Assembly: GCA_030267565.1 (NCBI GenBank)
Contig: BRXU01000018.1
Location: 1,612,001 to 1,676,000, forward strand
Origin: Pleodorina starrii
Lineage: Eukaryota > Chlorophyta > Chlorophyceae > Chlamydomonadales > Volvocaceae
Direction of reading: 5' to 3'
Length of the DNA: 64,000 bases
Shown here: positions 11,801 through 45,223 of the stretch, one piece after another
Position numbering within the stretch: position 1 is the first letter of the stretch
Layout of the letters: the number at the start of each line of letters is the position of its first letter
Notes under the pieces: generated by a model
Seen by the model: only the letters and a program-made list of their open reading frames with translations
Databases searched by the model: none
What the model was told of the DNA's origin: nothing
Translations under genes and position numbers: made by a program

Positions 11801-14800
11801 TCGGGCCGCCATCTGGGGCTGACCCCCGGGTCGCGAGGCGGTGGCCAGAGCCCGGACCAGCGGCACCAGCGCACTCAGCAGCAGCGGGTTGGTGGGGCTC
11901 TGAGGGGGGGAGAGAGGAGGGGAGAACCAGGCGGGGAGACGGGAGAGGAGGAAGGGGGCAGGGCACGAGGGCAGTCGCGGGTTGCGGAAGGCAGTAGAGA
12001 AGTCACGGGGGTGGGTGTGTATGCGTGTGTGTGTGTGTGTGTTGGGAGGGGGGTCAGGGAGGGCGGCATGTGGGTACCCCGTACGTCGCCGGGAGGGAGG
12101 GAGGGCGGGTGGGAGGTGGAAGGACCTTGAGGGGAGCCGGCGGCAGGTCCTGGCGCAGGAGTCTGGACGGGGCCTACATCTCCCGCCCTCAACCCGCCCC
12201 CGAGCCCCGCCCTAACCCCTTGTATACCCCCGCCCCCTCCCACGGCAGTTAAGAGCCCCAGTGCTTCACCACATGACGCACGCCCCTCCCCTCCTCCTCC
12301 CTCTCCTCCCCGCTCGTGACATTCCGCGGCTGCTTGCCCTGACCCTCCCCCTCCCCCTCCCCCCCGGGCCCGCCCCGCCCCGCCCCCTCCTCCTCCTCCT
12401 CCCCCCGCTGCTCACCTTCCTCTGCACCACCTCCAGCAGCCGCAGCGCCCGCAGCCGGAAGTCCAGCAGCGCCGCCGCGCGCTCCGCCGCCGCCGCCCCG
12501 CCCGCCCTTCCGCCCACCATGGACCGAAAGTAGGCCGCCAACTTGGCATCCATACGAAACATCGCCTCGTCATCCATATCCGGCTCCTCCTCCTCCTCAC
12601 CGTCCTCCTCCTCCTCACCGCCTTTCCCCGCCGCCTTCTCGTCATCGTCCTCCTCCTCGTCGCTCTCCTCCGACTCACTGCCGCTGCCGCTGCCGTCTTC
12701 GTCACCGGCATCCCCACCCGCCTTCTTCCGCTTCTTTTGCGAACCCTCCTCCTTGTCCTTCTTCTTCGTCTTCTGCTGATGCTGCTTGCCCTTCTTGCCG
12801 CTGCTGTCGTCCTCCTCCTCGCTCTCCTCCTCCTCCTCCTCCTCGCTCTCCTCCTCGCCGCCCTCCTCCTCCTCCTCCTCCTCCTCCTCGTCGCTCTCAA
12901 ACAGCCCCTCCACATCCTGCCCCTCGCCCTTGCCGCCCGCCGCCACCACCCGCACGAGGTCCGCCAGCCCCTCCGCGCTGATGCCCTCACAGCACTGCCG
13001 CCACAGCGCCTCGGCGGCGTCCCGCAGAGGAGCCACCGGCACCGGCGAGGGGGAGCCACCTCCGCCTCGTCCTCCTCTTCCTCCGCCTCCCCCTCCGGGT
13101 CGAGCCATCAGCGCCAGCATCAAGTCGACCAGCACGTCAGCCCAGGGACCAGGTCCGCCGGAGGCGCCTGCGGGGGAGGGAGGGAGGGTGGGGATTATCC
13201 ACGGGGGTATAGGCCGGAGCCCGTGAACGGTAAAGTAACGGTGGGTGGGGAGGGAGGGAGGGGCGTTTGAAGAGTGAATCTGCAAGAATGAGGAGGGAGG
13301 GGAGGTGACGTGACAGCGGGTTTCGAGTGCGGGAAAGGTAAGAGACAAGGCAGACGCAAGGTGCAAGAGGGCAGGGCGAGCTGCTGCTGCTGTCACTGCC
13401 GCTGCCGCGGGGGACCAGCTGCTGCTGCCGCGGCCCGCTCGTGTTTCAAAGCCACTCGCCGCCGCCGAGGGAGGAGCTACGACGCCGCCGCCGCCGACGC
13501 GGCCGACGACGACGACGACGACCACGACGACCACGACGGCGGCGGTAGCGATGTGTGGGTGTGGGTGCCAGCTCTCCTCTCCCTCCCTCCCCCACCCTCA
13601 ACCCGTCGTGTGTAACCCCCGCAGATACCCAACACCACCGCCCGGCCCCCGAGGAACGCCCCGGCACCCCCCTCCAGCACCCCCGGCCCCTCCCTCCCTC
13701 GCCCCAACCCCTCCCTCCCTCCAGCCCCCACCGACTCACCCGACGGCTTCTTGCCCTCCATGTCCTCCTCCTCGCTCTCCTCCTCCACCTCCACCTCGGG
13801 CAGTCCCTCCAGCCCTAGCCCCTCCGCCGCCACCCGCCGCAGACTCAGCGGCAGGTCCACCTCAAAGCCATCCGGATCCGCCAACAGCGCCAACTGCAAG
13901 TGACCCGCCACACACGCCAACGCACGCAGACGAGACGCCGCCGCGCCGCCGCCGCCGCCGGCGCCCTGCACACCCCCCTGCTCCTCCGCCTGGGCTGCCC
14001 CCTTGTCGTCGCCCTTCCTCTTGCCGGCGGCCTTCTTGCCGCCAGGGGTCGCGGCCGCCTTCTCCAGTTGCGCCACTCGCTCCAGGGCCGCCGTCTCAAT
14101 CGCGGCCAGCAGCGACAGCGCGTGAGATCCAGCCTCGTCCAGTTCCGTCGCCGGCGACACGCCGGGCGCCGCCAGGGCCTTACGGATGTACGACAGCGTG
14201 TCGTGGAGGGCCTGGTGGACGCTGCCCGGCGGCGGCGGAGCCGCCCCCGCCGGCGGCGGCTCCCGCCGCCGTCTTGCGCTTCTTTGCCGACGGCTGTTGG
14301 TCGCCGTCCTTGCTGTCGTGCTGCTGGTGGTGCTGTTGGGCTTGTCGTACTCGGAGTGCGGTGGCCGTCTTGTTGAGGTGGGATACGAGGGCGACCAGGC
14401 GGCTGACGCAGGTGGCGCGGGTGGCGGGGCTGAGGGGGGGACTCAGCAGCTGGGCCGCCTGGGCCACCTCGGGGAGAGGCTGCTGCTTGGACTTGGGGGA
14501 CTGCGGTGGAAGGGGGAGGGGGGGTGAGTTGGGTTGGAGGGAAGGGGGTGAAGAGGAGAGGGGGTTAATGATAGAGATGAGACCGCGGCAGAGATGACAC
14601 GGAAGCGGGGGTTGGGGGAGTGGGGTGGGTGGGAGTCGGGACTCTGGGTTGTAGGGTTTCCGGTTCGGGAGTGGGAAGAGTAGGAAGGAAGAAAGGAGGG
14701 GAGGGAGTAATGCGGGGTGCGGGGGCGCCGTAGCAGTGGAGAGGGGGGTTCGAGTGTGGAATGCGTCGGGGGTTTGGTGCAACCAGCAGCAGAAGATTCG

Positions 14801-17800
14801 ACACGCCACACACACACACACACACAAGCACACCTCCCCGCCCCACCCCACCCCGCCCCTTACCTTGACGCCCGCCTTGGGCTCCGAAACCCGCCCAAAC
14901 GCATGCAGCGCCAGGAAGCGCAGCGCCGCCTGCGTGTCCTCCGGCGTGGCGGTGGGCAACTTGAGGGCCGAGATCAGCGCATCCAGACACCGGCCGCGTC
15001 GCTCCGAAACCACCTTGGACACGTCTCCTCCCTCCTCCCCGCCATCACCATCGCCCTGCTCCTCCCCCTGCTGCTGCTGCTTGTCCTCCTCGTCCTCGGC
15101 GGCGGCTGTCCGCCCCTCGCCCCCCGGCTGCAGCGGCGGTGCCCCCCTCAGGAAGGCCTCCATGAGTGAGCCCACGTAGCGGTGGTAGCCCTCGGCATCC
15201 AGACCCTGTAATGAGGGGGACAAGGGAGAGAAGGGGGATGGGGGGATGGGGGGGTGGGGGTACAGAGTGTAAAAACAAGTCCGAAGCTGACAGGCAGGCT
15301 GGTCGACTCACATTACCGGCACGCGTCCGGACAGACCCTGAACCCGGTGGCCCCTTACCCCCTGTGGCCCCCGGGAATTACCAACGCTTATGGGTCATGG
15401 TCACACACATGCAGTCACAAGCCTGCGTGACAAACCTACAACTCCAACTACAACCGCGCTCCCACCACTCCCATCTCCCACCCACCCCCCGCCTCCGTCC
15501 CTTCGCTTCCCTCTCCTCCCCCTCCCCCACCTTGACCAGTTTGTCCATGATCTTGGTGTTCTTGTTGGCCCCCCCCAGCTTCTGCAGCGCCCCCGCCACC
15601 GCCATCTTGACCTCCACATCCGGGGAGCGGTCCATGAAGGCGGACACGCCGTCCTGGAGACCGAGACAAAGGGGGGGGGGTCAGGGGGAGAGAGGGTGCG
15701 GGGGCGGGGGGAGAGAGAGGATGCGGGGGGGGTCAGGGGGGGTGAGGAGTGTGTATGTGTGTGTGTGTGTGTGTTTTGAGGAGGAGCGATGTTTTGAAGA
15801 AGGTTAAATGCTTCGGGAGGATGGAGAGCGAGGAGAGTACAAGCGGGTGGGGGGGTCAGTGGGACTGTTCGCAGATACCAAGCACTTATGAAGGGTGGGG
15901 GGAGGGGGGCCGCAGCGGGGCGAGGTAGGGCGTGTGTGTGGGGGGGGCCTCCTTCGGACCCGGGCCCCCGCGAGCACCAACATAGCACCATACGTGGCTC
16001 TCTCCATCCATTGCCTCCCCCCGGCCCTCTCTTCAGCCCAGTACTCCGAAGTCCCATCCATGCGGCCCTCCCCTCACCCCCCCCCAAACCACCATCTAAA
16101 AAGTAAAACCCTCGGTGGGCTCACGAAACCCTGACGAGTCCCCTGCAGCAGACAAACCCCGCATCTGACAAGTCCCCCGTTCGAATCCGGCACCACTCAC
16201 CAGGAGCTTCACCCCGCTGGCGTGCAGGTAGCTGCTGTTCTTCTTGATCGCCCCCGCCAGCGTCGACACAAAGTTGGGCGAGAACACTCCCGCCACGTGC
16301 TCCGGCCGCAGGTGCGGCAGCAGCCGACTGAAGAGCTGGAAGCCCAGGTAGCGCCGCTCGTGGGAGGCGACCATCAGCCGACCCTCCACCACCACCCCCC
16401 AAAACGCCTCAAGCAGCGGCCCGCTCACAGCCCCCTTGCCCTCCGCAGACTTGGCCGCGGCGGCAGCGGCCTTGGCCGCCCTGGCGGCCGCCTTGGCGGC
16501 CTTCTTGTCGGCGCCGCCGCCGCCCGGCGGCGGCGGCTCCGCCGCCGCCGCTGTCGCGGCGGCGGCGGTGGCCGCGTTCGCGGCATCCAGCAGATCTGCG
16601 TTGTTTCTGTTGGGTCGGAATCCGGGCAGCAGCAACGCCAGTAGGTACTGCCAGAGCGTGTGGAGCCTCGGGTGGGCGGCGGAGGAGGCGAGGAGCGCCG
16701 GCGCCAGCGTCTGGAGGTGCTCGCGGCGAAAGAGCCCGGCGGCGGTGGCGGCAGCGGCGGCGGCGGTCGCGGCCGAGGGCGCGGCGGCGGCGGCGCCGCC
16801 GGCTCCGGATCCCGGCGGCGCAAAGAGCTCGCGCGGCGGCGGCGGCGTGTCGGGTGGCAGCAGGCGGCAGGCGCGTACGGCACTGGGTGGCAGCTTGGGC
16901 CACAGCACCAGGGCCAGCAGGAGAGCCTGGGCGGGTAGGGGGTAGGGGATTGGGGGTAGGATTGGGGGTAGGGGTGGTGAGGAACACAGAGCGGGACGGG
17001 ATGGGGCGGGACGGGGTGAGGAGCGGCCCTTCCCCCTTGCTCTGCTGAACCCGGGCCAGGGCTGTACACACAACCGTGCAGGGGCGGGGCGGGGCGGCAT
17101 CCTGTACACACAGGACAATGCCGCGAGGTCAGTCAGTCGGTCGGTCAGTCAGTCGAAACACCGGCGCCAGGCGCTGCCGGCCCGGTCCACCGCACTTGCG
17201 CGTGTGTGGCGTGTAGCTCCGCACACACCCCACCCCACCCCACCTCCGGTGTCGCCTCCGCCGGCGGCGCCGCCAGCATGCCTGCCAGCGGCTGCCCCGC
17301 CGCCGTCACCTCCTCCATCCCCTGCTCGTCCAACCTCTCCGCCGCCGCCAGCGCCAGCGCCGCCGCACACTCGCGCAGAAACGACTTCCGGAGCCCGCAC
17401 TGAATCAGTCCGTTGAACAGGCGGCACAGCAGAGACTGCTCCAGGGGCAGTCCCGAGCGAAGCAGGGCGCCGTACCCAAACATGCGCCCCAGCAGCGTCT
17501 CCTTGGCGTCCTGATAAGGCCCAGCACGGACAGTGCCGAGAGGATAACAAGAAGATAGCGCAGCGGAGACGGAGACGGCGTTAGCGAACGGACCCGGAAC
17601 ACAACAATAATTGGGGGGGGAGGGCGGGTTGGGGTTGGGTCGGATAGGGCTCGAGCGGGTTGGGGTAGGGTTCGGATACAGCATCAAGGTTGGGGCGGGT
17701 GTGTGTGTCACAAGCTCACAACAACGCGCTCTGCCAGGCCCCTGCCCCTGCCCCCCCTGCCCCCGCTCTGCCTCGCCCCCACAGCCGCGAGTCCCCCGTG

Positions 17801-19090
17801 TGTCGTCGTGTCCCGCAGGCAAGGCCGGCGGCGGTGGTGCCGTACACTGCGGTACGGCAGTAGGGCGGCACTCACCCCTCCCCTGAGCGGTCCATCTATG
17901 CAGACCTCCAGCAGCACCATGACTCCAGGGGCGGTCAGGCAGTCGGCGCCGCCCACCGCCGCCAGCAGTCCCGCCAGGGCGGTGGCGTAGCCCTGACGGG
18001 CGGCCTGGCGGGAGGAGCCCAGACCGCGGGCCAGGCGACGCAGCGTGTACACCTGGGGAGGTAGAGGGGAGGGGGAGTGAGGGGGAGCGGGAGGGGGGGG
18101 CGGGGTGAGGGGGGGAGGAGGGAGGGGGTGGTAAGCTGGTAAATAGGACGGACGTGGACGAACGGAGAGATAAGAGGGGGGTTGGGTTGGGAGTGGGATG
18201 CGGCAGTGGTACATGCGCTGCTGGTGCTGGTGCTGAGGGGGGAGGGGGTAGGGGGGAGGGAAAGGGGGGGAGGGGACCTCGCATGCCGGGTGGACGAGCG
18301 AGTGGGGCCACCGCTTCCTTGGAGGGGAGTGGAGTGGAGCGGAGGGGGAGGGGGAGAGGGCAGATGAGGGGACCCGGCTCTGGGGACTGTGCCAGAGGCC
18401 CGGGGCGGCTGCCGTGCTGCTGTGGCGGGCGGGGGGGGGGGAGTTCGCGGGCGCCGGTGTGGTGCGGCGTGGTGGGTTGGCCGTTGCCGTACTCACCGTG
18501 GTGGGGGAGCAGCGCCTCAGGTGGTACTCCAGGAGCTTAATCTTGGGGGAGCCCTCCTCCGGGGGGCTCTCCGTGTCCTTACCCAACGTGGCCAGGTGTT
18601 TTAGCTGGTCCTCGGTCACGTCTTTGACCAGCCCGCGAGCCGCCGCGATACGGACGTTCTGCGGCCGGCAAGGTTTCGGGGACGGCGGGCGTGAAGCACC
18701 GCCCGAGCCATGCAATTAGGCCGTGGCTCTCTCTCCCGCCAGCGAGCTTTGGTTTATGTGTACAAGGCAGGCGAGGGGCAGCTGTACATGGACACAAGCT
18801 GGGGATGCCGCCGCCACGCCGACAGGCCAGGACGCACCTCGTCATAGGACGCCATGTCCCAGAAGTATTGTAGTACCTGTCGTCAAAAAAATGTGCCCAA
18901 AGGTTTAGGTTACTCCGGGAAAAAACAGCGTTTGTCAACCAAACACAGTAAGCTGGGTGCCAGCTCTCGCAGGCTTCTCGAATGGCCCTTATAGGCAACT
19001 TACTGCTTGGCTCGTGTTGAGAGCCGTCGCAGCATCCGGATACTCATTCCCGTCATCGCCGCCGTTCGCCAAGTCCTTGTCGCTCGCCAT
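8885..19090 (-). CDS. Pol5/MYBBP1A-like nucleolar protein (DNA polymerase phi family)
   Basis: Despite the family name, Pol5/MYBBP1A proteins act in the nucleolus in rRNA transcription and ribosome assembly. Fifteen exons join in phase: 19004-19090, 18838-18876, 18497-18658, 17876-18052, 17244-17510, 16201-16926, 15531-15653, 14864-15205, 13740-14500, 12416-13167, 11766-11899, 11232-11464, 10412-10788, 10075-10194 and 8885-9610, about 1674 residues. Family marks in order: VLQYFWDMASYDE, NVRIAAARGLVKDVTEDQL, VYTLRRLARGLGSSRQAARQ, LGRMFGYGALLRSG, then later PWADVLVDLMLALMARP and ISAEGLADLVRVV, followed by long acidic runs. The C-terminus has K/E-, acidic- and RGG-rich tracts ending PAKKARR. The start ATG at 19090 (MASDKDLANGG) precedes a clean donor. 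The intron after exon 14 has a GC donor. Exon 9 needs a one-base correction within about 14225-14273. Confidence 0.9.
10201..10226. repeat. (TTGGGG)4 tract at a Pol5 splice acceptor
   Basis: Four tandem TTGGGG units. On the coding strand they read CCCCAA repeats that end directly in AAAAG, the acceptor of exon 14 (10075-10194), so this repeat takes the place of the usual polypyrimidine tract. Confidence 0.8.
11509..11596. repeat. Telomere-like T/A/G repeats in a Pol5 intron
   Basis: Repeated GGTTTTTAAGG units pass into GGTTTTAGGG-like units on the plus strand, resembling TTTAGGG/TTTTAGGG plant and algal telomere repeats. They lie within the intron between exons 11 and 12. Confidence 0.6.
14225..14273 (-). 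other. Frameshift site in Pol5 exon 9
   Basis: Upstream of this GC-only run the frame reads a Lys-rich KKRKTAAGAAAGGGG stretch. Downstream the family-like helix SVHQALHDTLSYIRKAL is in the next frame. Exon 9 is 761 nt long where 760 is needed, so one base is in excess (or two are missing). The run of five G (coding strand) at 14244-14248 is the likeliest site. No GT-AG intron fits. Sequencing error and a real mutation both remain possible. Confidence 0.7.
17546..17594 (+). repeat. Dispersed short element, copy 4 (diverged)
   Basis: AACAAGAAGATAGCGCAGCGG followed by AGACGGAGACGGCGTTAGCG, in a Pol5 intron. It shares the GAAGATA...GCAGCGGAGACGG...GCGTTAG order with copies 2 and 3. Confidence 0.6.
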
Positions 19091-33727: not shown

Positions 33728-36700
33728 TCAGGCCGATTCAGCGCCCTGCCGGCCGCCGCCCTGTTGCTGCTGGTGTCGCTTATTGTCCATGGTCCGGCCC
33801 TGGGTTCTCGTTTCAGCGTCGTTCTCTGCGTCGGCGTCAGCGTCGCTGCCGCAGCCGCCGTCGTATCGCGCCGCCACCGCCACCGCCACCGCGGCCTTAT
33901 CCGCCTCGGAAGTCGCCTGGCCCGGCGCCACCTGCTCCACCGCCGCGCCGCCGGCCCCGGCAGCGTCCGCATACCGCTGCCCTGCGTCGCTCGAGCCGCC
34001 AGCCACACCGCCGCCGCCCCTCAGCTGCGCCTCGCCACCGGGAGCCTCCGCATCCGGACCCGCCCGGACAGCCCCACCTCCCCCGGACAGCCGCGCCTGC
34101 GCCGCCGCCCTCATCGACGGCTGCTGCGCCCTCGTCTCGCCGCCCGCACCCCACAGGCGAGCCTGGTGCTCCTCCGGAACGTCGGAATGCCGCGCAGACT
34201 GCGACCCCCGCCGGCGGTACTCCCCCGCCTCCAACGGCTCCTCCTTCACCCTAGGACCGGCTCCCAGGCCAAGCTGCCGCTGCTGCTGCCGCTGCTGCTG
34301 CTGGTGCTGGGTCGCCTCCGGGCCCCCCCCGTCCGCCTGCAGCTGTTGCGCCAGGAGGGCTCCCACCGCCGCCGCCGCCGCTGCCGCCGCCCGCTCGTCC
34401 AAGAGCTGCTGCGAGCTGCGTCGGTCAGCATACGGCAGGCCCGCCGACGATGTCAGGGCTATCGGCTCCGGCCGCAGGGGCGATGGCAGATCAAGGGGCG
34501 GCTGCTGCTGCTGCTGCTGCTGGTGCTGGAGATGACCCCAATCGCCGTCCAAGGGGGGCAGATGCGGCGCCGCCGCCGCCGCTGCCGCCGTCATCAGGTC
34601 CCCACGGGACGCGGCAGCGAGCCCCGCGGCGGCGACGGCGGCGTCCCAGAGCGCCGCGAGCTGCGGGGGCGGCTGCAGCAGCGGCGGTGGGGCGGTGTCC
34701 GCCGGGAGTTGCTGCGCCGGTGTCGCGTAGGACGGCGAACGCTGCGTGGCATCGGGCAAGGAGCGGGGGAGCGAGGAGGGTCAGAGGCCCAGGTCAGATC
34801 AGGTCAGGTCAGGATGTGCGGCGGGGAAGGGACGAAGAGACCCGGCCTACGACCCGGCGAGGGAGATGGAGGCGATGGCGGGTGTAGGCTTTCGAAGCGC
34901 CCCGCCCCGCCCCGGGCTGCGACTGCGACTGCGGCCCAGCCAGCCAGCCAGCCAGCCAGTCGTCCTGTGATGACACAGCTGTGCGGCGGCGCGTGCAGTA
35001 GCACGCAAGGGCCGCACTCTCTGCGACGCGACCGGGAGGCAGCCCTGGAGGGGACGGGCAGGGACGATTACGGTACCCGCGCGCGCATGGAGCCCGGCAA
35101 CGAGAAAAGCAAGAGGGACAGGGCAGGGCAGAACAAGGGCCTGGGCCGACGGCTTCCGCGGATCAGTTGCTGCTGTGCCCTGGCGCAAAGGTCACGCACC
35201 GCCCGGTTCCCAGGTCCCATGGCCTACCCGGGGCTTGCGCGGCTCATCGCTCCCTGCGTCACCTGCAGCACAACACATCAAACCACACCGCAGCACACCA
35301 CACCGCCACACCACAGCACAGCATCGGAGCGCGCCGGTCAGTGCAGGCAGGTGCGCGGACAGGCGGCATGGGGCGGCCATCGGCGGGGCAGCACGCGGCG
35401 ACAGGGGCCGGCGTGCAAGAGACACATCGGACTGTGCGTCTCCGGTAGCACGATGCGTCCATACCAATGCAGGTCGGTAGAGCACATTGCGTTGCGCGAC
35501 GACGCCACCGGAACCGCCTTCCCGGTGCTGACCAGGCCCTGCTGGAATGCGGCCTTCAGACGGAAGGCGGGCCCCTGTCATTATGGGCCCAGGGGGCGTC
35601 AGCACCGCCTTTGTAGAACTCCAAACAGGTCATGATCAACAACCCAGTATTCGGCGCAACCCGGCAAGCCACGTCATTATTAAACGTGCCAGCGGCCCCG
35701 CACTCACCGCCGCTTTCCCGTTGCTCCGGCCGCTTGCGCCGCCGGGCATTGTGGCGTTGCAGCCTGCATGCGAGACGAGAGAGAGAGAGGAGAGGAGAGG
35801 GAGGCCCTCCAGCGTCAAAAGACGGCCAAAGCGGCTGCCAGTACTGCCATGCCAGGGTCATCCGGAATGAAAGCAATCCGCCCGACTCCAGAACCACGCT
35901 TTCAGACACGCTTTGCATGACGTTTTCGAGGTTAAGTCTATCTTGGGCGCCCGACCGCGAGAAAGGGCACATGACTGATTTTGGGAGGGCGCTGTGAGCG
36001 AGACACCCCTTTCCTCTTTTCTTCAGTTGCGCATAGGTGGCAAGGAAAGCCCGCACGGTGTTCTTTTCTCTTGGGTTGTACGCCTGGGCCGGAGCCAAGG
36101 CCATCGTCGGCAAAGGAAAAGTACTACGGTACTAATCCCCTGTCCACATGCGTAGTACAAGAATGTGCCCGCCACGATTTGCCACTCCATAACGCAGCCC
36201 TGGTTAGGTATGAATTTGCTTTTCGGGCAGCGCGTGCACATTTCAAGACAATTCAGACACGGGGCCACTCAGCCTGCATGTACTACACTCGCAACAAATG
36301 GGGAGGAATCACTCAAGCCCTCCATACTGGTTACGCCTCGACAACTTGCAAGCCTTCCATTCATTCTCCTTTTCCAGGACTTTACACGAAATTCAGCAAG
36401 CAGCGGCGCTTGAATCGCCGGTGAGATTCGGCGCCGCAGTACCGCCAGTCCGACTCGCTTTCGGCTGTGCATGAAGGGCTTTTCGCGCAACACGCGACGG
36501 CGAGGACACTGGAGCCACGGCCTGGCACAACGATCAGCAAGCCGAGGTGAGCGGATTATCCTTGCGCAATTGTACTGCGTCTGGCTTTAGGTCCTAAGGT
36601 ACTTCAGCCTCACAGAAAGTACTCCGCGAGCTGAGCCCCGCGATGGTCATGCCTGCAGTCCTGCGAGAGCCGCACGACCGCTGCGTTTTGAATACCGCTA

Positions 36701-39700
36701 GTGCAGCCGCAAAATTGAAGGGAACGTGCGGGGTGTGCGCGCGGTTTACATTTTTATTTTTACATGGGCGCCTGGCGGCGCTTGACACAAGCGTATGATG
36801 GCATGAAACGTGGCGCAGTATGGTGTACCAGGCGGCATCCACTTGGCCAAAAGGCCCCGCGGTGCCAACGGCCCCGGCCATCAGCCAACCGGACCTTCCG
36901 GTCGCCGCAGTGGTGACGGACTCCACTCCACGCACGTAGGCGGCGTCCAAAGCAAAGCGGCAAAGCGGCTGGAAAGTGCAGGCACCAGGCAGGCAGGTCA
37001 CGTCGGTGCACCCAGTCGGTTAACGGCACTTGCCCCCAGGGAAACGCCGCACTGGGCCCCATACCCCCGACCGAGTTTATAGGTTATCCCTCACTGCCAT
37101 GCCGCGGACGGCGTACACGATTCCGGGCAGCCAACCGTGCGTGTGTCCTTGTACCGAGAAGCCCCCGTCCGCTTGGGGCGGACGCGCAATCGCGCATACG
37201 AGTAAGCGAGGACGGAACCCAACCACACCCCCCACCACCCAAGCCCAGGAAAACTGGACACGCGGGTTCATGTGTAAGGGTTGTAAGCAATGCGCCCACC
37301 TTCCGATGAAATCTGATACCGGCAACCCTGCCCGCACGAGCGGTTCAGAACCACGATAGTCTGGACGAGCCATCTATCCGCTCGTCCTAGCTACGGACCC
37401 GCTTCGCGAAGCCCATGAATAATCGGAGCTCGCAGCCGGCATTATGTACATTAATACAGATTAAATCAAATTTTATAATAAAGTTACAGTGATGCAAAAT
37501 ATGCAGAAACATTTACCTGCCGAAAAAGCCGCATGAAGATGAATCGCCCACAGGAACAGGACGCCAAGTCAGCGCCGACTTGCAAGTTTTGAAAACGATA
37601 ATTTCTGTACGCCTTACACGACCTTCGTCCGTCGCCGCAAAATATCATCATCGCGCTTCATTGTGTACCCGTCGTTTACCTCCCTCCCCTCCCCACCCTG
37701 ACACACACACACACATACACGTCAGTCAAAGGCTGGTGTCAGTACACCCGTACACGTACTTTGCCCCCGATCCGTTTCTTTTTCTGCTGTCATTCCGGCA
37801 CCTGAAGCCCTCATCAGCTGCATCGCGACAAAAGGCGTATAAACTGAATTGCGTTTTGCTGGTACCGGTACTTGCCTTGCTGTCAAGGCTGTCGCACCAG
37901 CGACGTTAGATCCTGATCAGGAGCTCCTCCCCCCATAGGAAGGCCTTCCATCAAGACCATCAAGCTTGATGACCCAATCCTTCCAAGCTTTCATAAGCAC
38001 AGCACGATGCTCTTACCGTCTTACGTCATAAAGCTTTCCTTCCTAACTGGAAAACTAGCAGCCCTGAAGACCTAAAATGGGCTTTTGCGCAAACCCGAGC
38101 CAGAGGGACCAGTTCATACTCCACCCCATGCGCAGCTACCGGTTGTTTCATGGCAGACCGATAGAAGAAGACGCGCCGGACGCTCTCGCTCCGTTTTTTC
38201 CTTGCCCGTGCCGTACTACTGTACGGTATACGCGCCGCGACCCACCACGCACACCAGCTCACTCACCTCGCCCGGCAGCTGCGCTTGGTGCCATCGAACT
38301 CCGACAGCACGTGGAAGCGGCCGCACTGCTGACAGAAGCGCTGCGGGATGCCGTCTCGCAGCACGGTCTCGGCCTTGAGGTGGAAGTCGCAGATGCGGAA
38401 GCGCTGGTGGTACTCCTTCAGACTGGTCAGGTCCACGTGGCAGTCGTCCACGTGGCACATCAGCGGGAACTGCGCGGGAGGGCCGTGACGCACGGGACGA
38501 CCGTGACCGGTGATCGGCAGGGGGCGGGGTGCGGGGCGCAGCCGGGCGGGCGGACACATCAGTCGGGCACATACACACATGTCGGTCGGACCGCTCGCGT
38601 CCGTCTGTCCTACTGCCCATCATCGGCGGCGGACGATGCGGGGATAGACGGGCCGGCCGGGCCGGGCCGGGCCGGCAGCGGCAAGGGTGCATCCGTGCAC
38701 GGCGGCAAGCAGCCTGGACCCCGCCGCCAGCAACCCAGCCCCAGCCCGTCAGCACGGCCCGCGCAGCAAGCACGACCTGGACCGCCTCCTCTCCCTCCCC
38801 TCCTCGCTGCCAGCCACCATCACGCAACACGCACTCCTTACCTTGCCGCCGCCGGGCGGCCCGTCCCACCCCGCACGGCCACCGAAGCCCGACTTGCTGC
38901 CGCGCCCCCAGCCCCCGCCCGGCGCCCGGCTGCCGCCAGCGCCGCCGCTGCCCTCCTCCACGTGGTCCGGGTCGTCCTCCTCCGGGGACGCCCGCCGCCG
39001 CTTGCCGCCGCCGCCACTGGCTCCGAAACCGCCGCCGCCAGCAGCAGCAGCAGCAGCAGCAGAATCCTCCTCGCGGGGCGCCAGCGCCTGCACACCAGCA
39101 GTGGGCCAGCTGCCGCCGGTGCGCGCAGCCGCGAGTTGCATCGCTGTCGCGGCAACTGCAGCGGCCGTAACCCCGCCGCCATCGCCTCCTCCGCCGCCGC
39201 CGGGCGACGGCCAGCGATGCGGCGAGCTCAGGCGGGCGAGCTCCGCTGAGCTGTACTGAGGCGGCAGCAGCGACAGCGCGGACCTACTTCCCTCACCTGC
39301 CCCCCGCAAGCCAACGACGCCGCCGAGCGCCGCTGCCGCCGCGCCCCGGCCGCCGTGGAGCGGCGGCAGCGCCGCCGCCAGCGAGCCGCCGCTGGCCGCC
39401 GCCGCCGCCGCGCTGAGGATTCCCAGACCACCCGTGCAGGTACCGCCGCCACCACTGCCGCCCTGTTGCGCTGGCGCCGGCAGGAAGCTAGCAGGGTTGG
39501 ACGTTCCGCTCCTGCCGGTGGATGCGAACCGGCTAGGCAGCGCCATGCCGCCTCCGCCTCCACCGCCGCCGCCAGGTGGGCCCAGCAGCCGCAGGTCCAG
39601 CACCTCCGGGTCCAGGTCCCGCCTGAGGCCCGGCTCCCCTCCGCCACCACCACCGCCACCACCACCGCTGGCGCTGCTATCATCCGCCGCCGCCGCCCCC

Positions 39701-42700
39701 AACAACAGCGGCAGCCTCGACACCTCTCCGCCGCCACCACCGCCAGCCCAACCGCCGCCGCCGCTGCGATGTGCCGGCTGCTGCTGCTGCCGCCACTGCT
39801 GCTGCTGCTGCCGCTGGAAATGCGGCGCTGGCGGCTGCTCGGTAACGCCTCTTGCAGCGGCGGTGGCGGCGGTGGCGGCGGCATGCTGCAGCTGCATCAG
39901 CAGCGGCCGGGGCATCAGCGCCAGCAACGGCGCGTCGGGCCCGCCGCCCGCCGACGCGACCTGCAGCGGCCGCAGCCGGGAACCCAGCACGCCGCCGCTA
40001 GCCGCCAGGCCCCCCGACGGCAGCAGGTGCAGGCTCAGCCCTGCAGCCTCCAGAGCCGCCAACGGCACCGCAAACATGGCCTGTTCCCCGCCGCCTGCGC
40101 TGCCTGCGCTGTCGCCGCTGACGGGCGAGGCGGCTCCGTCCGCGTCATCGGCTGCAGCACCCGTCGGCTCTGGCTCCAGCGTCAGTCCCCGACCCAGGCC
40201 GAGGCTGGCCAATTGCAACGGCTGATGGCCCGTGTCGCCCTCGGCCGCGGCGGCAGCATTGATTATCATAGGCGGCCGAAAAGGTGATCTGCCGTTCGCT
40301 ACCGCCGCTGCCGCCGGGGCGGCCTCCGGCCGCCGCATGCGGGGCGGGTCGTCGTCATCCCGGGCGGTGCGCCCAACTCCGCCGCCGCCGGCCCCCTCGC
40401 CGCCACCGCCGGCTGTACGGCCGGCGTCTTGCAGGAGCGCCGGAGGCGGCAGCAGCAGGTACCCCGTGTCCGAGGCGCACTGAGTGCTGGCTGCCGCCCC
40501 GCCATCCCCAGTCGACGCGCCTCGGCCAGTGGGGCGCCCCTGGAGCCCGTGCTGCTGCTGCTGCTGTTGCTGGGCTGTTCGACTGCCGGTGCCGGCTGCT
40601 GCGCGGCCCCTCCCTGCTGCCGATTGGCGCCCGCCTCCTCCGTTTCCGTTTCCGCCGCCATCCGCGGCAGAGGCCCAGCGCTCACCTTTGCTCAGCGACG
40701 ACGACGCAGGCGGCGGCCGGCCGCCGCTGCTGTCCCTATCCCTGTCCCCGCCGAGGCCCACGACGCCGCCGGGCCCTTCAACCCTGCCGTCGCCTGCCGA
40801 GCTGCTGCATGGCGACTGTGCCCCTGCCGCTGCTGAAGCCGGTCCGGCCGGGAGCAGCAGCTGCTGCAGTTGCCTGCTGCTGCTCCCCGGCACATGATTG
40901 TGGCTCACCATCTCTTGCTGTTGCTGCTGCTGCTTCGAAAGCGCGTCCGCAGCCCCAAGCCGCGCCGGTGGCGGCGGCTGCGGCGCGCCCTCCCGATGGG
41001 GCAGCGGAGCGCCGGATCCGGGCCCCAGACCACCCAAGCTCCCGGCGGCTCCGGCGCTGCCTGCCTGTCGGTCTGCCGTTGCAGCAGCGCCCGCGCTGGC
41101 ACCTGAGCCACCGCCTGCTCCCGCCATTGCCGCCGCCGCCGCGCTTGCTGCTGCCGTTGCGCCAGGCGCAGGAGGGGCGTCGCGCTCCGCCGCCGCGGCC
41201 GGCGACTGCTGCTGCTGCTGCCGTTGCTGATGGGGCGGCGGAGGCGGAGGCGGCTGCGCCTGCAGTCCCGCCACGAAGTCCGGCGACTGCAGCAGCTGCA
41301 GCAGCATCGTGGCGGTGAGGTTGAGCTCCTGGAACAGCGCCTCGCATTCGGCCAGCTGCTCCGGCCGCCGCACCGCCCAGCGGGCCAGCGCGCGCGCCAG
41401 GCCCATCTCGCCGGCGCTGCCGCGGCAATAGGTGAGCAGCAGCCGCACCGCCTCGCTGCCGAGGGACTGAAAGGACGAGGCGGCCACCACCTCGTCGAAC
41501 CTGCGCCGTTTGAGGAAATGGGGCCGGCGGGTGGTCAGGCGTGGAGAAGGCGGCAGCCGGCGGCGGCGCGAGCTGCTGCTGTTGCCTGTGGGTGCTTCTT
41601 GTTAGGAAGCGCCGCGGGCGGCAATGCAAGGCGTTCGGACGGAACGGAACGGCGTGCGCGGGACAAATGCACGTGCATTCCCGCACGTGCACGGCAGGAA
41701 TGACCGTGCGCATCTCCTGGCGTGGCTGGCTTATCGGAAGGGTTGCCGCGTAGCTGACCCGCAGTTTCGGTAAGTACTGAATGCGATATTGTTGTACAAT
41801 CCTTACTCGTAAATTTGCCCTCCCCGCCGCAGCATGCACGGGCTGGCTGCTGCCGGCAGAACTGCGCTGACCGTTTATACAAGCAAGCCAGCCCTGCCTG
41901 GCAAGAGCGGAATTCTCCGAACGCGCCCCGCACGCAGACCCTTCACTGCAGTCCCAACACCAAATAGTGGCGACCCAACACCAGCGCCTACTTTGCTGTG
42001 CGCGTCTGCATTTACCCGCCCATGCAAACAGCATCCATGGAACGGCTGGCATGTTGCCAGCAGGCAGGTATCGGGCTGTATGTCCCCGGTTGAATGATGT
42101 TTATGTTCCAAGACTGTTGCACGCTGCTCGTTACGCAAAAAAATTGACTGGCACCCCTTCGGCATGCGCAGCAAGGAGCTTAGGGAGCTTCGCCAAAGCC
42201 TTCACCAAACAAACTCCAGACCTCGCCAGGGGGACACCAACGCACGCTGCGTGGTGGGCGCACGTGTCCAGTGCGTACATCACGGCGGGCGCTGGTCAAT
42301 GAAACCGTCTCTTGTTTGCGCCGGACTCCCCCTCCATCCCCTCGCTGCATCGCCTTCGTCCTTTCGCTGCGGTTTCTCCTTCACATCCCCACTCCTATCC
42401 CAGCAGCGTTCTCACATTCCTAGCGTTACTTGGGCGCAACTCCAGGCGCAGAAGCGCCTAGCTAGCTGCGAGTCTAGTGCCTTGTTGTGGTCGAACGCCA
42501 GGGAGCCTGAACATGCCTTGGCGCTAGGGGTAGCTAACTGCCCTAGGCGTCTCTCAGCGCACGTGCAACCGGGCGCTGCATCTGTGGCACGCCCTTGCCA
42601 GCGTATTGTTTCTTTGGCTTGTGCACGAAAGAGACTCCAACACGACATGACAGACCCATGGGCCGCTGCCGACGGGCGCTGCGACATTGGCGATCCCGAC

Positions 42701-43689
42701 GCGCGTGCCGGTATATGCAGTCACCAGTCAAGCTTTGGTCTAGGCTAGCCAAGCCAAGGCAAGGCCTGCCAGCAGCAGCGGCAGACTATCGCCTAGTGAA
42801 TAAACGGCCTCATGCGCGCAATCGGTGCGTGCCTGTGTGTGCACATGCGTCTTGGTCTGGGGATGGTCTGCTTTCCCCAGCATACGATTTACGGTACCGT
42901 ACCTTGATTTGGCGTACTCCAGGCACATCTTGATGGTCTGCTCCACCAGGAGCTCCACGGCCGCTCCCAGGAAGACGGGGCACGTCTGCGGGGTGAGGCT
43001 CTGCTGCATGTACTGCTCGCAACCGGCGGACAGCCCAGGCACATCCAGCTTGAGGCACACATCGTAGATGGGCACAACCGTCGCTGGGGTCAGCAGGCAC
43101 TCGCCCCGGTAGAAGAAGCCCACGACGGACTCCAGGGCTGCGCTGTCCACCCCTTGAACGGGCAGCTCCTTGCACGCGACGTCACCTGCGGCGGGCGCGC
43201 GGGCAGCCGGGATAGTGGTACCGCTGCTGATTGCGTCAACCAGAAAGTAGGCGGGTGGCATGGCGCGCAGGGATGCGCTCGGGACGCATGCACGGCGCGC
43301 GCGCTGTGCAGGCACGCAACGCGGCAGCCGTACCGCACAGCGCTGTACATCACGGCCAGCTGGTCGGACTGGCGTCACTGTTTTTCCGCCAACTTGGATT
43401 GCGGATTGTGGTGCCGGTGCTTGAGCGCTGAATGGCCGCGCAGCGGTTAAACACCGGTGCGCGAGCCCGAATAATACGGCTTGCGACGTACGTCCGCGGA
43501 CGATTGGCGAACCTCACCATGGGCCAGGACCGTTGCAAATTTGCGTGAACACGCTGCCAAGATGACTTGATGCACATGGATTGGGCGCCCGTCCGGGCGG
43601 ACCAGAACAAGGTCGCTGAGGCGGGGGTTGTTCAAGTGCGCCTGGAGGCCGTTGTAGATTCCACGGGATGCCTCACGATAGACGTGCGC
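33728..43689 (-). CDS. BTB-BACK-SBP fusion: SBP-box transcription factor with N-terminal BTB/POZ domain
   Basis: Seven exons join in phase: 43518-43689, 42903-43185, 38842-41500, 38267-38469, 35708-35763, 35228-35262 and 33728-34741 (stop TGA), at least 1473 residues. The BTB domain reads LSDLVLVRPDGRPIHVHQVI...ELPVQGVDSAALESVVGFFYRGE. A BACK domain follows across the 42903/41500 junction (KMCLEYAKSR/FDEVVAASSFQSLG, then ARALARWAVRRPEQL). After ~790 Gln/Gly/Ala/Pro/Ser-rich residues comes a full SBP domain: first zinc site CHVDDC...CDFH, second CQQC..FH...C, and a bipartite NLS KRSCRARLQRHNARRRKR split by an intron. The C-terminal exon is Gln/Ala-rich with a SUMO-like VKEE. BTB-BACK proteins often serve as CUL3 adaptors and SBP domains bind GTAC cores; combining these roles is inference. 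The true start codon is not found: an in-frame stop at 43891-43893 with no ATG after it implies at least one more 5' exon. Confidence 0.85.
35764..38266 (-). other. Intron splitting the SBP domain
   Basis: 2503 bp, GT-AG, phase 2, interrupting the codon after KRSCRA. Plant SBP boxes are also commonly split near this point. The 36.0-38.0 kb stretch is AT-richer and has no recognisable gene. Confidence 0.7.
41501..42902 (-). other. Intron inside the BACK domain of the BTB-SBP gene
   Basis: 1402 bp, GT-AG (AAATCAAG/GTACGG to GGCGCAG/GTTCGAC), phase 2. No gene is recognised in it. A weak match to the dispersed short element (TTCGCTGCGG) is near 42363. Confidence 0.75.
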
Positions 43690-45223
43690 CTGCAGTTGGT
43701 CGACCCAGTCGGCCGTCCATAGTATGAGACTGACGAGGGAGGACAACCACGCGATGCACTTTGCTCTGTCAGTCCACCGCACGTGCGGAATTATTCTCTC
43801 AAAAACAGAGGAAATTGTGAAAATACTTGAGGAATTCCCCTTCTGCGTGCAACCTGATAACAGGACCACTTGAGGCCCGTCTGCCGTGCATCAAGGTCCA
43901 TAAATCGCTATTCTGTTTATTTTATTGCCTTACCGACGCAGCAACAATTTCCGTGTCTGAGGCCGTTGCCATCCGGCCCGCCCAGACGAAGCGCACGGTT
44001 GCCTTATGAAGCCGCTCCCAGCTTTCACAATCCAGCAGCAAGGCGGCTCCAGCTCGCCCTTACTCTAGCAAGCCGTCTCATAAACTCCAAGAAGCTCAAA
44101 GGACCGATGCAGGGGAGTTCCTCCGGCCCCCGCTCTCAGCACAACGGCAATGGTTCCCATTGTCATATTTATTGGCAATTCACACAAAGGGCATAACCTG
44201 CTTATATCTAAAGTTCAATGTATGATGCGAAGTGCGGGTCGGCAAAGGTTGTTCATGTTCTCAACTTCGGCTGGACGAGCAAAGACCGCCCGGACTCATT
44301 GCATAAAGTGCCCCCGTCGAGGATCATAACGCAAAGCGCACTTGCAGCGACTTGCATCACAGCAGTTTCAACGGAAGTTTGTCCTTGGCACGCCCAAAAC
44401 ACAACGATCCGTTCATTCTCAGACTCAGGCTTTGGTCAAAGCCCGGGCAAAGCACAGGCAGCAATACAGCATAACAACATAACTTTGGACATTTTTTCTG
44501 ATATTTACCTATAGCTCGTATTTTGACCTTGCCAGAAGTGACAAACAGTAACGGCAATCCCGTATCATAGAAGGAAAAGCCGTGCACGAGGGGTTGTGGG
44601 GTTCCCTGTTCCATCAGTACTTTCCCCAAGCACTATGTGCTGATGGCATCGTCGGCCTTCCTCAAATGATGTTTCTGAGTGACAAAAGGCAGCGGCCTCG
44701 GTTTCCCTGAGGGTGTCGATACGAAGTTATGTGGATGCAGGAAAATGCAAACATTCTTTGCACGCAATTGCCGTAACGGCGATCCCGATTATAAGACGTT
44801 ATCATCTTTGCCAATCACACGCACGCGCACGCAGAACATACGGTAAGCTGCCGTCTCTTTGGCTCCTGTCGGTCCCCCGAAGGCTTCATGCAATATAAGA
44901 CCGTAAATGCTTGCCGGTGCAGCATTTGGGTGTGAAGGCTTACAACGAAGGTGAAGCGTGAAGGACCTGCGCTCCGAAACTGTCCGGCGGCAAGTACACG
45001 ATCGGCTCCTCTTCTTGACGATGCGATCTGTGATGTAATGGGGATATACAGTTCGATAAGCAACATGGCAATGCTCGGCCTCCGTCTTGCCAGGGGCCGC
45101 CCTTTCCTGCATTCCGCAAGGTGATGATAATCACCATGAAACTCCTTGCCTTTTTGCCGGCCATGGAGGTTGGAACTCCTGGGTTCGGACGCCGCCATCG
45201 TTGTGCAGACAGCCTGTTTCGTA
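43690..45223. other. Divergent upstream region, BTB-SBP and FKBP-MsrA genes
   Basis: About 1.5 kb, AT-richer than average from 43900 to 45100. It should contain the missing 5' exon(s) of the BTB-SBP gene, possibly a transit-peptide exon of the FKBP-MsrA gene, and both promoters. An ATG at 43901 (minus, MDLDARQTGLK) is one candidate first exon, but I cannot fix its splice. Confidence 0.5.

Follow-up and report, generated by a model that had tools for sequence, protein, structure and literature searches.

A predicted BTB-BACK and SBP-box fusion protein in Pleodorina starrii, likely orthologous to Chlamydomonas PIR3

A single gene of the green alga Pleodorina starrii is predicted to encode one protein with a BTB domain and a BACK-like region near its N-terminus and an SBP-box DNA-binding domain downstream. 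The gene lies in a 64,000-nucleotide stretch of contig BRXU01000018.1 (positions 1,612,001 to 1,676,000), here called the window, and its sequence relationships make it a likely orthologue of PIR3, a published photosystem I (PSI) gene of Chlamydomonas reinhardtii. We consider it probable that the product is one BTB-BACK and SBP protein and likely a nuclear factor, with the BTB domain pairing two copies and two SBP domains sitting on GTAC-type sites. SBP factors are a major family of plant regulators, to which a widespread BTB-SBP layout adds a built-in predicted dimerisation module. The initial annotation of this DNA knew of no such protein, and we likewise found no description of BTB-SBP proteins in the literature searched.

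Gene model and domain content

The spliced model runs on the minus strand (43972-33728) and comprises eight exons, with all introns GT-AG and in phase. It gives 1486 residues, in which BTB and the BACK-like region are followed by a mostly disordered stretch of about 800 and then by SBP with both zinc patterns and the NLS (Table 1). When exons 2 to 6 are spliced by themselves, the resulting 1124 residues contain no stop in frame 0, against 15 and 14 stops in the other two frames. Exon 4 (2659 nt, 886 codons plus one base) lies inside a 950-codon stop-to-stop frame (41601-38749), and its coding frame is the only open one, each of the remaining five holding 4–13 stops. The BTB exons are spliced to it in phases 1 and 2, and a 372-bp GT-AG intron in phase 0 separates it from the SBP exon. 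The initial annotation had proposed this 886-codon frame and these joins, all of which stand; its model was nevertheless incomplete, as it lacked the ATG exon and the mini-exon. These two of the eight exons are inferred, having been picked by similarity to the Volvox africanus protein P0002: the first is one of 18 candidates and resembles the P0002 start MDAENVVAA/AHVYRD, and the mini-exon is one of 36 in-phase candidates, with an alternative acceptor at 35253.

Table 1 Features of the BTB-SBP gene (positions in the window; residues of the predicted protein)
Feature	Position	Strand	Basis
Exon 1, inferred, ATG start MATASDTEIVAAS	43934..43972	-	In-phase ATG-to-GT stretch, donor TCG/GTAAGG
Exon 2, BTB first half	43518..43689	-	Pfam BTB 59.0 bits over residues 30-133; in phase
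Exon 3, BTB second half and start of BACK-like region	42903..43185	-	In-phase splice, Pfam
Exon 4, remaining BACK-like region, low-complexity linker, conserved module, pre-SBP motif	38842..41500	-	886-codon frame, orthologue alignment
Conserved linker module, residues 635-704	39883..40092	-	Alignment of window protein and six orthologues
Pre-SBP motif KRRRASPEEDDPDHV, residues 998-1012	38959..39003	-	Similar in 7/7 PIR3-clade rows
Exon 5, bulk of SBP domain, both zinc-site patterns	38267..38469	-	Pfam SBP 105.7 bits together with exon 6
Exon 6, SBP C-terminal end and NLS LQRHNARRRKRPEQRES	35708..35763	-	In-phase GT-AG exon; agrees with orthologues
Exon 7, inferred mini-exon DAGSDEPRKPR, 35 nt	35228..35262 (or from 35253)	-	Likeness to P0002 NDEPRKAQ
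Exon 8, Q/A/P-rich C-terminal tail and stop codon	33728..34741	-	RSPSYA start as in V. africanus proteins; phase 0

The five-exon model matches the Pfam SBP profile at 105.7 bits (cut-off 27) over positions 1-75 of 75, and the BTB profile at 54.5 bits, or 59.0 bits on the N-terminal 247 residues (cut-off 20.5); the SBP and BTB assignments of the initial annotation thus clear their thresholds. Both zinc patterns are intact, C-x4-C...C-x2-H as CHVDDC...CDFH and C-x2-C-x3-H-x11-C as CQQCGRFH...C, and the basic NLS tail RARLQRHNARRRKR overlaps the SBP domain in the spliced model, also as had been claimed. The BACK assignment fared less evenly: a predicted helical BACK fold does follow the BTB domain, but as a Pfam domain BACK stays under its cut-off of 20.9, at 13.0 bits in the five-exon model and 17.6 bits on the N-terminal 247 residues. 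Among relatives, BACK exceeds the cut-off in P0007, P0011, P0015, P0020, P0028, P0034, P0036 and P0039, falls below it in P0001, P0004, P0005 and P0040, and is not listed at all for P0006, P0029 and P0038.

With the SBP-box/SPL factors (CRR1, AtSPL4/7) the window protein has in common an SBP domain with both zinc patterns and an NLS, and AtSPL4 is the best PDB match of its SBP part (131 bits with the profile); the N-terminal BTB-BACK sets it apart from them. It also differs from CRR1-type SBP-ankyrin proteins, as no ankyrin repeats were found in the five-exon model (E ≤ 1, exon 8 lying outside the scan) or in C. reinhardtii P0004 (E ≤ 10).

BTB-SBP proteins in other green algae and elsewhere in the genome

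Protein searches with the BTB-BACK part retrieved five proteins, four of them with BTB and SBP, and the SBP part retrieved 31, while a six-row profile search returned at least 48 among the best 7990 candidates, which were scored. By our own profiles, the 62 different retrieved proteins divide into 21 with BTB and SBP, 37 with SBP only and four with BTB only, so the search of relatives that the initial annotation had proposed does recover the architecture. BTB-BACK lies upstream of SBP in every one of the 21 fusion proteins, and the source Pfam lists agree on 20 of them, P0041 being partial. The volvocine sources are V. africanus (three proteins), V. reticuliferus, Pleodorina and Gonium (two). 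Further fusions come from C. reinhardtii, C. schloesseri, C. eustigma (two), Chlamydomonas sp. UWO 241, Sanguina, Scenedesmus, Raphidocelis, Bryopsis, Ostreobium and four more sources. Ostreobium belongs to the Ulvophyceae (Bryopsidales) and Raphidocelis to the Chlorophyceae (Sphaeropleales); for Bryopsis, Scenedesmus and Sanguina we assume a taxonomic placement. For the retrieved SBP proteins of, for example, Coccomyxa, Trebouxia and Micractinium, which we take to be Trebouxiophyceae, the Pfam lists contain no BTB. Relatives without BTB carry SBP alone or together with PF12796, PF00023 or PF13606 (presumably ankyrin), PF26102 or PF01388. The gene models of P0003, P0043 and P0044 have BTB but no SBP, P0044 showing BTB-BACK and no SBP in 1634 residues, and P0033 carries an additional PF05871 domain; the oddities of P0003, P0033 and P0044 are probably gene-model faults or real variants.

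We also searched the 136-Mb assembly (95 contigs), which gave 25 SBP and 60 BTB matches; dropping four second exons leaves 21 SBP loci. A BTB match lies at most 6 kb upstream on the same strand at three of these, the window and the loci C5 and C4, against 0.028 pairs expected (Poisson P = 3.5e-6, with the 6-kb distance set only after the pairs were known). A tblastn scan for BTB (E < 0.01), run as 20 stretches covering 17 of the 20 other SBP loci (C28, C31 and C39 lie outside it), was positive at two of the 17, C5 and C4 only. Within the genome, the window BTB has its closest BTB exons at these two loci, the fourth nearest C5/C4 exon (E = 7.8e-5) standing narrowly before another BTB gene (8.6e-5). 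The C4 locus is 98-100% identical in several pieces to the P. starrii fusion protein P0038, and over 170 residues of the tail it is 98.8% identical to P0038, where V. africanus P0035 reaches 56%. With two further loci in this genome and 21 fusions among 62 retrieved proteins, the fusion cannot be put down to a local accident.

Other matches in the assembly were noted in passing. Upstream of the top-scoring SBP match in the genome (C7:3610796, 103 bits; L017 8297-8488), 8.3 kb of sequence contain no BTB match. BTB matches cluster at C7:1110267-1124933 (five) and C49:344411-368058 (seven), and those at C5:967553, 972969 and 978385 have equal scores and are spaced by exactly 5416 bases, either as recent tandem copies or through assembly duplication.

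Orthology to PIR3 and a conserved linker module

In a tree of BTB-BACK regions, the window protein groups at 100/100 with C. reinhardtii P0004 and the proteins of C. schloesseri, Gonium, V. africanus and V. reticuliferus, and in an SBP tree it groups at 98/99 with the SBP rows of the same clade and one SBP-only fragment, P0050. C5 falls in a second 100/100 group of the BTB-BACK tree with Gonium P0029, P0035, P0037 and P0038, where P0038 stands in for C4. Identity to P0004 is 62% in BTB-BACK and 91% in SBP, and the two proteins share one order of parts, from BTB and a weak BACK through the linker module and the pre-SBP motif to SBP. P0004 is CHLRE_01g012200v5, that is Cre01.g012200 or PIR3, and the window gene is likely its orthologue.

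Cre01.g012200 was named PIR3 in PMC10760936 (Cell 2023), which reports depletion of the PSI complex in the pir3 mutant; the protein, given there as a predicted bZIP factor with conservation reaching land plants, is predicted in the cytosol or nucleus and proposed to regulate nuclear PSI genes. PIR3 is missing among the rescued genes named in that account, which links it to PSI by linkage and proteomics. In Table 7 of PMC4067076 the gene, marked NF*, is listed beside transcription regulators in the half headed 'Elevated in sak1'. As Chlamydomonas PIR3 is reported as needed for PSI, the window gene likely regulates photosynthesis genes; the phenotype itself belongs to PIR3, whereas the window gene is known from its sequence, and PSI loss in the pir3 mutant could be indirect. 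On P0004, Pfam at E ≤ 10 returns SBP (106.3 bits), BTB (66.3 bits) and BACK (18.7 bits, below cut-off) and no bZIP domain, which gives PIR3 a concrete molecular identity at odds with its printed bZIP label.

Between BACK and SBP, the PIR3 clade carries a linker module with the predicted fold β-α-β-β-β-β-α. An AlphaFold2 model of residues 600-720 of the window protein, made with six orthologues, shows a small fold, with pLDDT of 89-93 per block over residues 640-699 (about 91 altogether). The module is kept in 7/7 PIR3-clade rows, the same rows that built its profile, and at E ≤ 1 this profile has no match outside the clade among the 62 retrieved proteins. Pfam gives no match at E ≤ 1, and the best structural matches (PDB, viral) are not significant. 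Its conservation between BACK and SBP supports one protein. The pre-SBP motif is absent from C. eustigma P0007 in the alignment.

Candidate modes of action

In the reading we favor, the BTB domain would pair two copies of the protein; the structure predictions covered single chains. In the orthologue model, the folds nearest to BTB are Keap1, BCL6, ZBTB8A and LRF, and those nearest to BTB plus BACK are KBTBD2 and A55. The two SBP domains, on flexible arms, could then read GTAC-type DNA sites together, and the BACK region or the folded linker module may recruit a cofactor. A GTAC core is known for CRR1, according to the title of a paper cited in PMC10796333. The window gene would keep the PIR3 role, acting on nuclear genes needed for PSI.

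CUL3 adaptors carry a hydrophobic-X-Glu (phi-X-E) motif in a loop of the BTB domain. The initial annotation had envisaged an adaptor of this kind on DNA, in which BTB-BACK binds CUL3 and SBP takes the ubiquitin ligase to promoters. The layout, BTB followed by BACK, is that of the KLHL/KBTBD adaptors, and the solved BTB-BACK structures nearest to our profile are adaptors, KLHL3 (115 bits) and KBTBD2 (107 bits). A cullin is encoded as well, 164 translated residues at the C3 locus matching Cullin-3 best (180 bits versus 124 for CUL4A). However, no hydrophobic-X-Glu/Asp occurs in the window BTB loop FATVLAHGDVACKELPV or in the other five full PIR3-clade rows, and the loop is shorter than that of KLHL3. 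The KLHL3 glutamate does align with an acidic residue (GD/GE) in the window protein, P0001, P0002, P0004, P0005, P0006 and P0007, but the hydrophobic position is a gap in the PIR3-clade rows and the loop alignment is unsure. Elsewhere in the loop, hydrophobic-X-Glu occurs in 5/21 relatives (P0015, P0020, P0033, P0034 and P0042). By Pfam, neither the five-exon model nor the scanned relatives contain Kelch repeats or another known substrate domain. Recruitment of a ubiquitin ligase is thus weakened by the loop while a CUL3 remains encoded, and we regard it as unlikely. Overall, the interpretation in the initial annotation, which also allowed for dimerisation through BTB, is partly supported.

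Alternatively, BTB-BACK might act, as in regulators of the NPR1 or BCL6 type, mainly by docking a corepressor or coactivator and less by dimerising. NPR1 and the NPR1-TGA3 complex come up in Foldseek at ranks 42 and 47, and BCL6 BTB with corepressor peptides is among the top VIA matches; docking and dimerisation can coexist, however, and we find docking as the main function quite improbable. That a BTB-BACK gene and a neighboring SBP gene were merged by prediction only is very hard to credit, for although the model rests on genomic sequence and the V. reticuliferus model P0003 ends before SBP, the open 886-codon frame with its in-phase introns, the conserved module mid-way along it, the 21 predicted fusions across many species and the three BTB-SBP pairs in one genome all argue against it.

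The single paired factor that we prefer is similar in layout to animal ZBTB factors such as BCL6 and LRF, which have a C2H2 DNA-binding domain where the window protein has SBP and a BACK-like region, a likeness that does not imply shared descent of the fusion. This resemblance, and a linker module that matches nothing significantly in the searched libraries, lend the family its wider interest. Quite possibly, though we say so tentatively, these proteins are a chlorophyte counterpart of ZBTB: BTB-paired SBPs would date back at least to the divergence of Chlorophyceae and Bryopsidales, and one volvocine-chlamydomonad branch would have gained the folded linker domain and become a nuclear control of PSI. 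The BTB-SBP proteins do not form one group in the SBP tree (the best tree has five BTB-label changes, with no fewer than three of them forced), so a single origin of the fusion is not established.

Elsewhere in the window, exons of a DNA polymerase phi gene (PF04931) lie on the minus strand at 12266-18536, matching at 68.5 and 24.7 bits, the second under the cut-off of 27.6.
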